The notes under the pieces: generated by a model | What the model was told of the DNA's origin: nothing | Seen by the model: only the letters and a program-made list of their open reading frames with translations | Database searches by the model: none | Part shown: piece by piece, positions 30,364-34,515 of the stretch | How positions within the stretch are numbered: the first letter of the stretch is position 1 | Layout: every line of letters starts with the position of its first letter | Translations under genes and position numbers: made by a program | NCBI GenBank assembly: GCA_927362715.1 | Contig: CAKMIX010000005.1 | Coordinates: 62,001 to 126,000, forward strand | Reading direction: 5' to 3' | Length of the DNA stretch: 64,000 nucleotides | Source: an uncultured Clostridia bacterium | Lineage (GTDB): Bacteria; Bacillota; Clostridia; Oscillospirales; Acutalibacteraceae

Positions 30364-31686
30364 ATGGGTTACACAAAAGAAGATGTTTTGCGCATTGCAA
30401 AGGAACAGGATGTCAAATTCATCCGTTTGCAGTTCACTGATATTTTCGGTCAGCTGAAAAATGTCGCCATCACCGAAAGCCAGTTGGAAAAAGCGCTCGA
30501 CAACGAGTGTATGTTTGATGGTTCTTCGATCGAGGGCTTTGTGCGCATCGACGAATCCGATATGTACCTGCGCCCGGATTACGATTCCTTTGTACTGCTG
30601 CCGTGGAAAGACCGCGTCGCGCGTTTGATCTGCGATGTCTACTGCGCGGACGGCACGACGCCGTTCTTGGGCGATCCGAGAAACGTGCTCAAAAAAGTCA
30701 TCAAGGAAGCCGCCGAAATGGGCTACACCTTCAACGTCGGCCCCGAATGTGAATTTTTCCTGTTCCAGCTTGATGAAGACGGCAACCCCACCACCAAGAC
30801 CGGCGACGTAGCAGGTTATTTTGATATGGGTCCCTCCGATCAGGGTGAACAGTGCCGCCGTGAGATCTGTTTGGCGCTCGAGGATATGGGCTTTGAGATC
30901 GAAGCGTCGCACCATGAGGTCGCCGCAGGCCAGCACGAGATCGACTTCCGTTTTGACGAAGTTTTAAAGACCGCCGACAACGTGATGACCTTTAAGCATG
31001 TGGTCAAGACCTATGCCCGCCGTCACGGTCTGCATGCAACATTCATGCCCAAGCCCGTATTCGGCATAAACGGTTCGGGCATGCACACCAACATGTCGCT
31101 GATGAAAGACGGCAAAAATGCTTTCTACGATCCCGAGACGGAACTGGGGCTTAGCGACACCGCTATGTACTTCATCGCGGGCCTTCTCAAGCATGTCAAG
31201 GGCATTGCCGCGGTCTCCAACCCCCTGGTCAACTCCTATAAGCGCTTGGTGCCCGGCTATGAAGCACCCGTATACCTTTCCTGGTCGGCTTCCAACCGTT
31301 CGGCGCTCATTCGTGTGCCTGCCGCGCGCGGCATGGGTACGCGCGTAGAGCTGCGCTGCCCCGATCCGTCCTGCAACCCCTACCTTGAAATGGCGCTCTG
31401 CCTTGCTGCGGGGCTCGACGGCATCAAAAACAAACTCACCCCGCCCGCAGGCACAAACAAGAATATCTTTGCCATGTCTCCTGAGGAGCTTGCTGCGGAC
31501 GGCATCGACAGCCTGCCCGGGTCTCTGGAGGAAGCGCTGGTCGAATTCCAAAAGGACCCCTTCATCAAAGAGGCGCTCGGCGAGCATGTCTATACGAAGT
31601 ATCTCGAGGGCAAAGAACACGAGTGGGACAGATACCGCACCAGCGTCAGCGATTGGGAGATCGGCAACTATCTGACCAAATATTGA
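30364..31686 (+). CDS. glnA: Glutamine synthetase type I
   Basis: GlnA makes glutamine from glutamate, ammonia and ATP. The 440-residue protein has the GSI-alpha length and motifs: [21 protein letters not shown], the metal-binding GPECEFFLF and the Asp-rich EIDFRFDE. It also has the glutamate-binding [19 protein letters not shown] and the ATP-site [17 protein letters not shown]. The adenylation loop typical of GSI-beta is absent. GAAAGGAG precedes the ATG. The leader hairpin suggests transcriptional control. Confidence 0.96.
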
Positions 31687-31824
31687 TATACCGAGCGGAA
31701 AACGGCGCCATTTCGCACCGTTCTCTATAAATACCTCATTTTTTCTCCTGTGGCGCCGGCGCGGCTTCCCTTCCGCGTCGGCGCATCCCTTTTGTATGGA
31801 TGCAGTTCGCCGCAAAAGTGCACG

Positions 31825-31961
31825 AAAAAGCCGTCCGAGGGGGCTCGGGCGGCTTTTTCGCTTTTGTAAAAAAGAAAGGGGGAGAAATGAAAAAGTTCTG
31901 CCAAACAGAAGGGGGAATTCTGTTTGCGTCTCCTCAAGAGTGGGGTCTCTCTTGATTTGAT
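31825..31961 (-). ncRNA. Candidate small RNA, copy 1 (C-rich loops)
   Basis: A minus-strand promoter (TTGTAT 31990-31995, 16-base spacer, TATACT 31968-31973) would start a ~137-nt RNA. Hairpin 1 (31934-31955) is TCAAGAG/CTCTTGA with loop AGACCCCA. Hairpin 2 (31902-31926) is CAAACAGAA/TTCTGTTTG with loop TTCCCCC. An unpaired TCTCCCCCTTTC tract follows, then a terminator (31825-31858) with a CCCC loop and T tract. No protein is likely. Four C-rich unpaired tracts suggest pairing with Shine-Dalgarno sequences. Confidence 0.6.
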
Positions 31962-32231
31962 GGTTTGAGTATACAGGCAAATTATGGCGATACAATAAAA
32001 TAGAGTTGAACGTTTTGTAAACGTTCTCGTTTTGATACGGCAGTACGGCAGAAAGGAAAAACCGCCCGAGGGGGAGCCCGGGCGGTTTTCCTCTTTTTGT
32101 AAAAAAAGAAAGGGGGAGAAATGAAAAAGTTCTGCCAAACAGAAGGGGGAATTCTGTTTGCGTCTCCTCAAGAGTGGGGTCTCTCTTGATTCGATGGTTT
32201 GAGTATACAGGCAAATTATGGCGATACAATA
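31874..32231. repeat. Tandem direct repeat, two units of about 125-160 bp
   Basis: Positions 31874-31997 and 32108-32231 match at all but one base. Similarity (GTTGAACGTTTTGTAAAC) continues beyond on the promoter side. The period is 234 bp. Confidence 0.9.
32055..32195 (-). ncRNA. Candidate small RNA, copy 2 (C-rich loops)
   Basis: This is the tandem duplicate of the sRNA at 31825-31961, 234 bases away, with its own promoter (TTGTAT 32224-32229, TATACT 32202-32207) and its own terminator (32055-32092; stem AAAACCGCCCG/CGGGCGGTTTT, loop GGCTCCCCC on the minus strand). The body is identical to copy 1 over about 125 bases apart from one substitution. The terminators differ more. Confidence 0.6.
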
Positions 32232-32285
32232 GAGATTTGTTGAACGTTTTGTAAACACAAACCAAAGGTGTTTTTTATTTTTCGT

Positions 32286-33437
32286 TCATAAAATCTCGCT
32301 GTAGCTCCCCAAGTAGGAAAATTGTTCCGCAGAAGCTTCCAGCTCAGAGATCATGCGCAGGAAGTTTTCGGAATAAACCGACGCTTCAATATCGAAATAA
32401 AACAGGAATTCAAAGTCACTGTTGGGCTTCGGGCGGCTTTCGAGCTTTAAAAGATTGATGTCCAGCGCGTAAAACCGGGAAAGCACGTCGTACAGCGAAC
32501 CGGGGCGGTGCGGCAGGGTGAGCATCAGGCTCGTTTTATTCGCACCGGCGAAAATCTCCGGCTCTTTGCCAATACAGATAAAGCGCGTGTAATTGTTCGC
32601 GTTGTTCTGCACGCCCTCGGCGAGCATCGACAGCCCGTAAAGCGCCATGCAGTCCTTCGACGAGATCGCAGCAACATCCGAGCGTTCGCTTTCGGACACG
32701 CGCTTTGCGGCGGCGGCAGTATTTTCACAAACGGTAACTTTTACGTTCGGCAGCTTCGACAGAAAGTTACTGCACTGTTGGATCGCCTGCTCGTGTGAGA
32801 AGATCTCGCGCACCTCGGAAAGCGCCGTACCTGGCTTTGCAAGCAGTGCGTGGCTGACCTTTAAGCGCACGCTTTTGACGATGTAAAAGTTGTGGCGGTT
32901 CATCAGGTCATACACATGGTTCACCGAACCCGCCGTGCTGTTTTCGATCGGCAGGATGCCATAGCGGCAAAGCCCCTGCTGCACAGCAGAAAACACATCC
33001 TCCCAAGAGGCAAAAAACATAATATCGGGATTTTTGAACAGCCTTTCACACGCAAGCGACGAATAGGCGCCCTCCACGCCCTGACACGCGACAACGGCGC
33101 TTTCGGGGAGATCCTGCATGGCAAAACGTTGGGCGCTTTGGCGGATGCGCTCCATAAGTGCCGAGCTGCCTTGGTCGAGATACTTATGCTGGTATGAGCG
33201 CGAAAGCCCCATAATGGAGGAATACAAAAGCCGTGTATAAAGCTGTAAATCCTTGTCATCGGATTTTGCCGCGACACGGGCGAGCAGCTCGCGTTCCCGT
33301 GTACGGTCAAGAACAGGCATGCGGTTTTCCTGCTTGTATTTCGCGACCTCTAAGGACACACCCATGCGCTTTAAGAACAGTTCCACAAGCCTGTCGTCGA
33401 TCTCGTTGATCTCGCGGCGCAGTTCCTGAATTTCCAT
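32286..33437 (-). CDS. pheA: Bifunctional chorismate mutase/prephenate dehydratase
   Basis: PheA converts chorismate to prephenate and then phenylpyruvate. The 383-residue protein has an AroQ chorismate mutase domain (1-90; LRREINEIDDRLVELFLKRM). The prephenate dehydratase domain (about 110-285) has ACQGVEGAYSS, PIENSTAGSV and the catalytic NNYTRFICIG. A C-terminal ACT domain (about 300-375) has the LPHRPGSLYDVLSRF and LESRPK motifs for phenylalanine feedback. GGAGGTTGATAAT precedes ATG 33437. It is the last gene of the aromatic operon, 4 bases after aroC. Confidence 0.95.
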   Translation of the reverse strand: MEIQELRREINEIDDRLVELFLKRMGVSLEVAKYKQENRMPVLDRTRERELLARVAAKSDDKDLQLYTRLLYSSIMGLSRSYQHKYLDQGSSALMERIRQSAQRFAMQDLPESAVVACQGVEGAYSSLACERLFKNPDIMFFASWEDVFSAVQQGLCRYGILPIENSTAGSVNHVYDLMNRHNFYIVKSVRLKVSHALLAKPGTALSEVREIFSHEQAIQQCSNFLSKLPNVKVTVCENTAAAAKRVSESERSDVAAISSKDCMALYGLSMLAEGVQNNANNYTRFICIGKEPEIFAGANKTSLMLTLPHRPGSLYDVLSRFYALDINLLKLESRPKPNSDFEFLFYFDIEASVYSENFLRMISELEASAEQFSYLGSYSEIL

Positions 33438-33441
33438 ATTA

Positions 33442-34515
33442 TCAACCTCCGAGAATATCGAGCATCGTGATCGCCGTGACCGCCTCCACAACGGGAACGG
33501 CGCGCGGGACGATGCACGGGTCATGCCGTCCTTTTATCACAAGCGTGGTCTGTGTGTCCGTCGGCAGATGCACGCTTTGCTGCGGCTTTGCGATGGACGC
33601 GGTAGGCTTGATCGCGACACGGAATACAATGGGCATGCCGGAAGTGATCCCGCCCAAGATCCCGCCGTGGTTGTTTGTGGCAGTCGTGACATGCCCTGCC
33701 CCGTCGGTCAAAAAGGCATCGTTGTTTTCGCTGCCGCGCAAACGGCTTCCCGCAAAGCCGCTGCCGAATTCCAAGCCCTTGACGGCGGGGATACCGAACA
33801 GCGCCTTTGCCAAACGATTTTCAATACCGTCAAACATCGGCTCGCCCAAGCCCGCAGGCATGCCTGTCACGGCACATTCCACTACGCCGCCGACGGAGTC
33901 GCAGTCCATGCGCGCTTTTTCAATGGCGCCGCGCATTTTTTCGCCCTGCTTATCCGAAAGCACGGGGAAAGGCTTTGCCGCCACGTCGTCAGCCTGCACC
34001 TGCACGGGATCATACGGTGTGTCACAGACATCCGCGATGGAATAGATATGCGCGCGCACCCGGACGCCGCGCGCTTCAAGCATTTGCAGGCAGATGCCGC
34101 CCGCAAAGCAAAGCGGCGCAGTCAGGCGGCCGGAGAAGTGTCCGCCGCCCGCGACATCCTGAAAGCCGTGGAACTTTACATTCGCGGCAAAATCCGCGTG
34201 CGAGGGGCGCGGGGTGTCGCGCAGGTTGTCGTAGTCCCCGGAGCGGGTATTGGTATTTTCGATCAGCATGCCGAGCGGCGCACCGCAGGTCATGCCGTCG
34301 CAAAGGCCCGATAAAATCACGGGTTCGTCCGCCTCCTTGCGGGCGGTGGAAAAACTTGCATTGCCGGGCGCGCGTCTTTGTGTAAAGGTTTGCAGCTTGT
34401 CAAAGTCGATCTTAAAACCGGCGGGCAGACCGTCGATCACCGCGCCGATGGCTTTGGAATGGGACTGCCCAAACACCGAAACACGGATGTGATCACCTTG
34501 CAGGATCGAGGACAT
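33442..34515 (-). CDS. aroC: Chorismate synthase
   Basis: AroC makes chorismate from EPSP using reduced FMN. The 357-residue protein has the family signatures GQSHSKAIGAVIDGLPAG, RRAPG, SRPSHADF-like TPRPSHADFAANVKF and VAGGGHFSGRLTA. It also has the C-terminal GRHDPCIVPRAVPVVEA. The start at 34515 (GGGAGGTATGGTCG) lies 23 bases inside aroA, so translation is coupled. Confidence 0.96.
   Translation of the reverse strand: MSSILQGDHIRVSVFGQSHSKAIGAVIDGLPAGFKIDFDKLQTFTQRRAPGNASFSTARKEADEPVILSGLCDGMTCGAPLGMLIENTNTRSGDYDNLRDTPRPSHADFAANVKFHGFQDVAGGGHFSGRLTAPLCFAGGICLQMLEARGVRVRAHIYSIADVCDTPYDPVQVQADDVAAKPFPVLSDKQGEKMRGAIEKARMDCDSVGGVVECAVTGMPAGLGEPMFDGIENRLAKALFGIPAVKGLEFGSGFAGSRLRGSENNDAFLTDGAGHVTTATNNHGGILGGITSGMPIVFRVAIKPTASIAKPQQSVHLPTDTQTTLVIKGRHDPCIVPRAVPVVEAVTAITMLDILGG

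Follow-up and report, generated by a model that had tools for sequence, protein, structure and literature searches.

The csRNAs of Streptococcus, which belong to the CiaRH regulon, carry an unpaired stretch complementary to the Shine-Dalgarno sequence and the start codon, with a CAU in 53 of 61 (PMC3091779), and their genes also occur in tandem copies (PMC4507080, PMC8186281). In Listeria, LhrC1-5 have UCCC sites in a loop, in a single strand and in the terminator loop and act on a cell-wall protein (PMC4132741). IsrR of Staphylococcus has three C-rich regions, and its pairing models include the Shine-Dalgarno sequence and the AUG (PMC9410917). C-rich regions are the common trait under which RoxS, FsrA and CsfG of Bacillus subtilis have been grouped (PMC8216469).

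The locus described here shares with the csRNAs an unpaired stretch facing the Shine-Dalgarno sequence and start codon, tandem copies, hairpins and locations that vary, a regulator box in the form of a direct repeat and a proposed blocking of the translation initiation region (TIR). It differs from them in its box, which is TTYACA-N5-TTHA and lies 5′ of the -35; the CiaR box TTTAAG-N5-TTTAAG is reached at 11/12 by 0 of 30 units (best scores 7-10/12). The complement also spans two Lys codons, a possible further difference. Furthermore, the locus belongs to a different order, the Oscillospirales, and a sequence tie was sought via Rfam. At the sRNA coordinates no match attains the threshold of its Rfam family, RsaE and the ylbH leader being sub-threshold matches, and LhrC, for which Rfam presumably holds a model, is absent from the 27 matches listed at E up to 10. 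The likeness to LhrC lies in the multicopy arrangement and in C-rich sites in the loop, single strand and terminator loop of the window copies; a complement of start codon and Lys codons is not part of the LhrC description in the accessible parts of PMC4132741. IsrR is unlike the present sRNA in its iron control and Fe-S enzyme targets, according to PMC9410917, and no sequence link between the two came to light. In design the locus matches the streptococcal csRNAs and Listeria LhrC, so that its proposed way of working is a known one.

Two putative tandem sRNA genes between glnA and pheA

The window, i.e. the whole stretch of 64,000 nucleotides that was analysed, belongs to a genome of 2.17 Mb. 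Between glnA and pheA it holds a 234-bp repeat in two copies, with the sRNA parts on the minus strand of each unit (Table 1). The 155-nt copies at 31868-32022 and 32102-32256 are 95% identical at a spacing of 234 bp. An earlier note had proposed two 234-bp minus-strand units, each with a promoter, two hairpins, a C-rich single strand and a terminator, and sequence and fold confirm this arrangement. The units do lie at 31825-32231, where the note had put them, but their parts reach further, to the upstream box at 32241-32255 on one side and to a terminator from about 31821 on the other. Near-identity of the bodies also holds, at 1 difference in 104 positions from the -10 through CCCCCTTTCTTTT instead of about 1 in 125. 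Comparison of the copies agrees with the claimed divergence of the terminators; the lengths of the T-runs and the bases immediately 5′ of the -35 differ as well.

Table 1. Coordinates of the putative sRNA genes, their parts and the neighbouring genes in the window
Feature	Position	Strand	Basis and remarks
sRNA gene copy 1 (nearest pheA)	32050..32195	-	about 145 nt, with predicted ends; promoter and terminator read from the sequence
sRNA gene copy 2	31818..31961	-	about 143 nt, with predicted ends; promoter and terminator read from the sequence
-35 TTGTAT copy 1	32224..32229	-	sequence; weak consensus match, unlisted in scan
-10 TATACT copy 1	32202..32207	-	sequence
-35 TTGTAT copy 2	31990..31995	-	sequence
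-10 TATACT copy 2	31968..31973	-	sequence
Conserved upstream box TTTACA-N5-TTCA copy 1	32241..32255	-	fixed offset in relatives
Conserved upstream box copy 2	32007..32021	-	fixed offset in relatives
Hairpin 1, C-rich loop, copy 1	32168..32189	-	predicted fold; loop varies in relatives
Hairpin 1 copy 2	31934..31955	-	predicted fold
Hairpin 2, loop UUCCCCC, copy 1	32136..32160	-	predicted fold; type B units and other scaffolds without it
Hairpin 2 copy 2	31902..31926	-	predicted fold
Anti-TIR element AACUUUUUCAUUUCUCCCCCUUUC copy 1	32108..32131	-	conservation, unpairedness, pairing test; unpaired 0.59
Anti-TIR element copy 2	31874..31897	-	same basis as copy 1; unpaired 0.68
Terminator hairpin and U-run copy 1	32052..32091	-	sequence, fold, covariation over relatives
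Terminator hairpin copy 2	31821..31860	-	17-nt arms, 94% complementary; covariation over relatives
22-codon open frame MKKFCQTEGGILFASPQEWGLS	32121..32189; same at 31887-31955	+	not a gene by our reading
pheA (chorismate mutase/prephenate dehydratase)	32286..33524	-	upstream of sRNA genes, same strand; NF008865 220.1 bits (cut-off 219)
glnA	30364..31686	+	converging neighbour; TIGR00653 577.9 bits (cut-off 429.15)

The promoter TTGTAT-16-TATACT was found in both copies, as the note had it. Because its -35 is weak and the consensus promoter scan does not list it, the support for this promoter is its conservation. A TTYACA-N5-TTHA box precedes the -35; its distance from the -10 is the same 48 bp in 27 of the 30 units of the genus, and the window contains two matches compared with 0.16 expected. 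Direct repeats of 11 bp and of such form are typical of OmpR/PhoP-type regulators, and the PhoP consensus, a direct repeat of the TTHAYA type, was used for scoring the box. As a set, the units score higher for TTHAYA-N5-TTHAYA than shuffles do (0 of 200 reach the mean), the units being related and single ones often unremarkable. An OmpR-type regulator may bind this box; as a PhoP site it is a candidate and a lead only. Elsewhere in the same genome (L276, position 862), a perfect TTTACA-N5-TTTACA (12/12) is found about 110 bp 5′ of a gene for a pstS-like lipoprotein and is the sole box scoring at least 11 in 3372 bp. That gene (G000:C31:1588-2394) itself begins with MKK, and the PBP_like_2 profile matches it with its two halves in swapped order.

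Minus-strand stretches of 148 nt fold better than all of 200 dinucleotide shuffles (z -6.66 for copy 2 and -4.82 for copy 1), compared with a z of -0.63 for the plus strand of one body (31868-31968), for which 49 of 200 shuffles were equal or better. The predicted folds of both copies contain the claimed hairpins with C-rich loops, AGACCCCA and UUCCCCC, and a C-rich terminator loop (CUCCCC in copy 1, CCCC in copy 2). Stems that fail to covary, with the plus-strand frame of 22 codons conserved instead, had been named as a finding that would speak against an sRNA. Among the genus relatives the terminator covaries, with changes on both sides in 10 of 15 pairs, while no covariation was found in hairpins 1 and 2. 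For the structure as a whole, none of 500 shuffles attains the observed covariation score, though this control takes no account of relatedness.

The main part of this objection, conservation of the plus-strand frame, does not hold: the 22-codon frame survives in 8 of 27 units, which come only from the five nearest genomes. In the 27 genus units the plus-strand frames range from 7 to 39 aa and have MKK only in common (the four type C units have another start and are outside this count), and in 14 tested loci of other genera the opposite frames have 2-44 aa, e.g. MKK followed by a stop. The promoter scan lists no plus-strand promoter between the terminator and the Shine-Dalgarno sequence. A plus-strand peptide or type I toxin(-antitoxin) was rejected on the grounds that the frame is not conserved beyond near relatives.

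Conservation of the anti-TIR element across changing scaffolds

As the note had suggested, relatives were sought with a covariance model. This model, R1, was built from 14 units with the element included, and finds units across the genus and in other genera of the order. It matches 32 of 39 genus genomes and 25 of the 27 good ones; both window copies are training sequences and give 178.2 bits (E 6.9e-50, copy 1) and 181.2 bits (E 8.7e-51, copy 2). BLAST at E 0.01 gave matches in 15 of the 39, some by chance. After reading by eye, 31 units in 26 genomes were kept, and R1 matches in six genomes (G011, G012, G015, G020, G024, G027) were dropped as unconvincing. One stretch recurs almost unchanged on different contigs of G027 (L123, L124, L125, three copies) and may be a mobile element. 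A degenerate 25-mer matches 10 genome contigs, nine of them apparently sRNA-bearing contigs of the genus; the match in L039 is the start of a real gene. In viral contigs the 25-mer was not found.

The repeated C-rich loops had been highlighted. They are present in the window copies, but the loop of hairpin 1 is C-rich only in the nearest relatives of the window, hairpin 2 is missing from type B units, and several relatives lack the C tract of the terminator loop. The best-conserved part is instead an unpaired element, ACUUUUUCAUUUCUCCCCCUUUC, the exact complement of a translation initiation region with Shine-Dalgarno sequence, AUG and Lys-Lys. Its reverse complement, GAAAGGGGGAGAAATGAAAAAGT, reads as a textbook initiation region with a G-rich Shine-Dalgarno sequence, AUG and two Lys codons. 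In the 14 aligned A1 units CUUUUUCAUUU is invariant (14/14) and the following C tract nearly so; among the 31 curated units, CUUUUUCAUUU is present in 26 and CUUUUUCAU in 27, the remaining four (type C) carrying UUUUCAUUC. The C tract varies between CUCCCCC (17 units), AUCCC (8) and CUCC (6). An unpaired stretch against the Shine-Dalgarno sequence and start codon occurs in 31/31 units, an inflated count because the element is part of R1 and of the eye criterion by which units were kept. The mean predicted unpaired probability of the element over these units is 0.73, compared with 0.42 and 0.35 in the flanks, and exceeds 0.6 in 26 of 31; in the window copies the anti-Shine-Dalgarno part is partly paired. 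Two genomes (G002 and G038) have a second tandem copy with wholly different hairpins, yet 25 nt of the element are common to it and the first copy. From one relative to another, and from one tandem copy to the next, the hairpins change and the element persists.

Two Rfam families were considered as possible relatives. RF01820 (RsaE/RoxS) has its best match in the whole genome within the window (36.5 bits, E 2.1e-4), where a CAAACA/UGUUUG hairpin with a CCCCUU loop, a C-rich single strand and a terminator recall that sRNA. A divergent RsaE/RoxS orthologue is nevertheless very improbable: the two scores, 36.5 and 32.3 bits, compare with a gathering score of 79, and among 17 relatives' loci searched at E <= 0.5 only L013 matches (31.6 bits). 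The matching C-rich loop hairpin, hairpin 2, does not occur in type B units or on other scaffolds, including the second-scaffold units, and hence looks derived. Even less credit can be given to a sporulation sRNA of the CsfG type. The csfG gene is antisense to the ylbH leader (RF00516), and this model matches the opposite strand with 40.3 bits (E 3.6e-7), its complementary strand sharing a C-rich loop, a UUUCUCC stretch and a terminator with the sRNA; Spo0A_C is found in 37 of 39 genus genomes. The scores of 40.3 and 26.7 bits stay below the gathering score of 50 (relatives: 42.1 bits in L013, 25.9 in L088), and the -10, TATACT and similar (TATAnT-like), looks by eye more like the housekeeping than the sigma-F/sigma-G sporulation type.

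The surroundings of the units raise a further alternative, namely that they form the 3′ end or terminator, a 3′ UTR element, of an aro-pheA operon and have no role in trans. In 20 of 27 searched loci a pheA or aroC match is present, with the unit directly 3′ of that gene within roughly 120 bp, and on the minus strand no terminator is listed by the scan from pheA to unit 1; glnA matches in six of the 27, the loci spanning only about 1.5 kb on each side. Against such an element, which we regard as improbable, stand a conserved promoter of its own with the box at constant distance and the presence of two full units; moreover, termination needs no anti-TIR. Five genus loci (L064, L091, L092, L094, L098) have no match to the searched proteins and L093 has a weak AroA match only (25% identity), so that the sRNA gene is not tied to one place.

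At E 0.01, R1 matches occur in 129 of 398 genomes of the family and at E 1e-5 in 23 of 295 genomes of the order, own genus counted; the weak ones read outside the genus were mostly chance terminators or real gene starts, as in L055. Of the 65 non-genus family matches that we read (25 loci and 40 stretches, including L059), 12 look like sRNAs that carry the element on another scaffold (L050, L051, L056, L060, L061, L062, L065, L067, L147, L155, L178, L180). C- or CU-rich stretches without a CAU complement were seen in L053, L054, L058, L072, L152 and L154. In family f14, L271 is sRNA-like with the element, and L261 is perhaps similar, with GCUUUUCAUCACCUUCCC behind a TATAAT. Directly 5′ of the genus g51 anti-TIR sRNA, positions 1185-1388 of L051 match 6S RNA (59 bits, threshold 46.4).

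Among 22 hand-chosen lineage representatives, the reverse complement contains a motif of the Shine-Dalgarno-AUG-Lys type in 17, compared with 1.09 expected from shuffles, a count inflated for the same reason as that in the curated units. A 5′-end pattern independent of the element proved too loose, matching 210 of 398 genomes. Of 50 such sites read, 20 of them picked by eye, five are sRNA-like: four combine a complement of the Shine-Dalgarno sequence with a CAU, three at very short spacing, and L190 has the anti-Shine-Dalgarno part only. In several sRNA-like loci of other genera (L180, L187, L188, L189, L190, L054), the TATACT promoter and the anti-Shine-Dalgarno or anti-TIR part enclose a stretch resembling GGAAUACCGG...GGCAGACC, possibly a domain that is conserved in a larger family. 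Family f13 contains C-rich sRNA-like genes with a TATACT promoter and ...UUUCUCUUUUACCCC... (L253, L254, L255, L257, L258, L273, L274), arranged as tandem pairs in two genomes. These are seven of ten loci read in f13, and they have CCCC(C) unpaired with no adjoining CAU; two have a CAU beside the C's in the terminator hairpin only.

Predicted targets of the element

A search of the own genome with the pattern CTTTTTCATN{1,9}CYCC returned 23 rows, compared with four for the reversed pattern. These collapse to the two sRNA genes and 16 other sites, all of which open a frame of at least 89 aa (16/16); 13 of the 16 frames are exported- or membrane-like by eye. Gene starts were then taken from a sample of 464 kb including the window, approximately 21% of the genome, with 416 crude gene calls and equally crude export calls. 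In this sample, ATGAAAAAR starts are exported-like in 13 of 17 cases and others in 60 of 399 (Fisher 7.6e-8); with the five pattern-chosen stretches removed, the figures are 5 of 8 and 51 of 323.

Duplexes of -18 kcal/mol or lower formed at 32 of the 416 gene starts, compared with none in coding and one in upstream controls; 60 shuffled elements gave a mean of 12.7 and a maximum of 25. Among the top 30 duplexes, 16 genes are exported-like, compared with 73 of 416 overall and with a mean of 8.15 and a maximum of 12 for the shuffles; the anti-Shine-Dalgarno part alone gave 11 and the anti-AUG part alone 12. The element thus pairs best with the starts of exported-like proteins in this sample. The mean energy over all gene starts, -10.20, is not beyond all shuffles (lowest -10.53). 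As at least one of the 60 has a lower mean, much of the pairing signal is generic anti-Shine-Dalgarno pairing. No near-perfect target was found in the own genome: besides the sRNA genes, one site has at most three mismatches to the 19-mer, a 48-codon frame beside phage-like genes.

These data can be read in another way, in which the C tracts alone matter, the sRNA is a generic anti-Shine-Dalgarno RNA with targets in nitrogen, aromatic amino acid and redox metabolism, and little is left for the CAU-AAAAAG complement to do. The readiness with which shuffled C/U-rich elements bind gene starts would fit this, as would the five of 22 lineage representatives without the start-codon part and the seven f13 relatives in which the unpaired stretch offers CCCC(C) only. 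We consider it unlikely, though clearly less so than the other alternatives, given that CUUUUUCAU is kept in most genus units although the C tract varies, and that the full element exceeds all 60 shuffles both in strong duplexes and in exported-like genes among the top 30.

Proposed role and novelty

The reading of the earlier note, a C-rich sRNA pair comparable to csRNAs, remains the best one and draws support from folding, loss of the frame, terminator covariation and csRNA likeness. In its present form, to which we give a probability of about 0.68, the locus would comprise a tandem gene pair whose product is a trans-acting sRNA, about 145 nt long and independent of Hfq, which blocks the starts of exported proteins via its anti-TIR element. 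Hfq was found in 0 of 39 genus genomes, while five of 14 control genomes had a match. Read from the sequences are the gene anatomy, the element kept as scaffolds change, the absence of the plus-strand frame from the majority of relatives, the covariation of the terminator and the predicted pairing preference.

According to this model, a housekeeping-type promoter, together with the upstream direct-repeat box as a possible site of an OmpR-type regulator, would drive synthesis of the sRNA, whose hairpins would keep the anti-TIR element unpaired. At the starts of many mRNAs, the element would pair with the Shine-Dalgarno sequence, the AUG and the first Lys codons, thereby blocking ribosome binding. 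Since exported proteins often start with MKK, proteins of this type should be the main targets, with lipoproteins, signal-peptide and membrane proteins as the main predictions. The C-rich loops may act as additional anti-Shine-Dalgarno sites, and the two copies may provide a higher dose.

A few literature searches on Fimenecus, on ncRNAs of Ruminococcaceae and on sRNAs with signal peptide and lysine codons, with subscription journals mostly outside their reach, found no such RNA among the titles listed. The units probably represent a csRNA-like family, so far undescribed, whose complement extends over Lys-Lys and whose function is proposed from sequence. Novelty seems to lie in the family and its lineage, in the extension over Lys-Lys, which predicts targets as a whole class, and in scaffolds that are exchanged while the element remains fixed. 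More speculative, and in our view doubtful, is the wider idea of a recurrent class of gut-bacterial sRNAs whose conserved core, instead of a seed for a single mRNA, is the complement of exported-gene starts (Shine-Dalgarno sequence, AUG, Lys-Lys), retained when hairpins are exchanged, and which, under a PhoP-like switch, would act as a brake on the whole secretome without Hfq.

If the csRNA-like reading is true, the csRNA principle would extend from the streptococci to an order of gut commensals. The question of what C-rich sRNAs target would become a testable prediction that can be read from sequence, namely MKK starts. The family would also offer a case of element and scaffold evolving separately, between species and between tandem copies.
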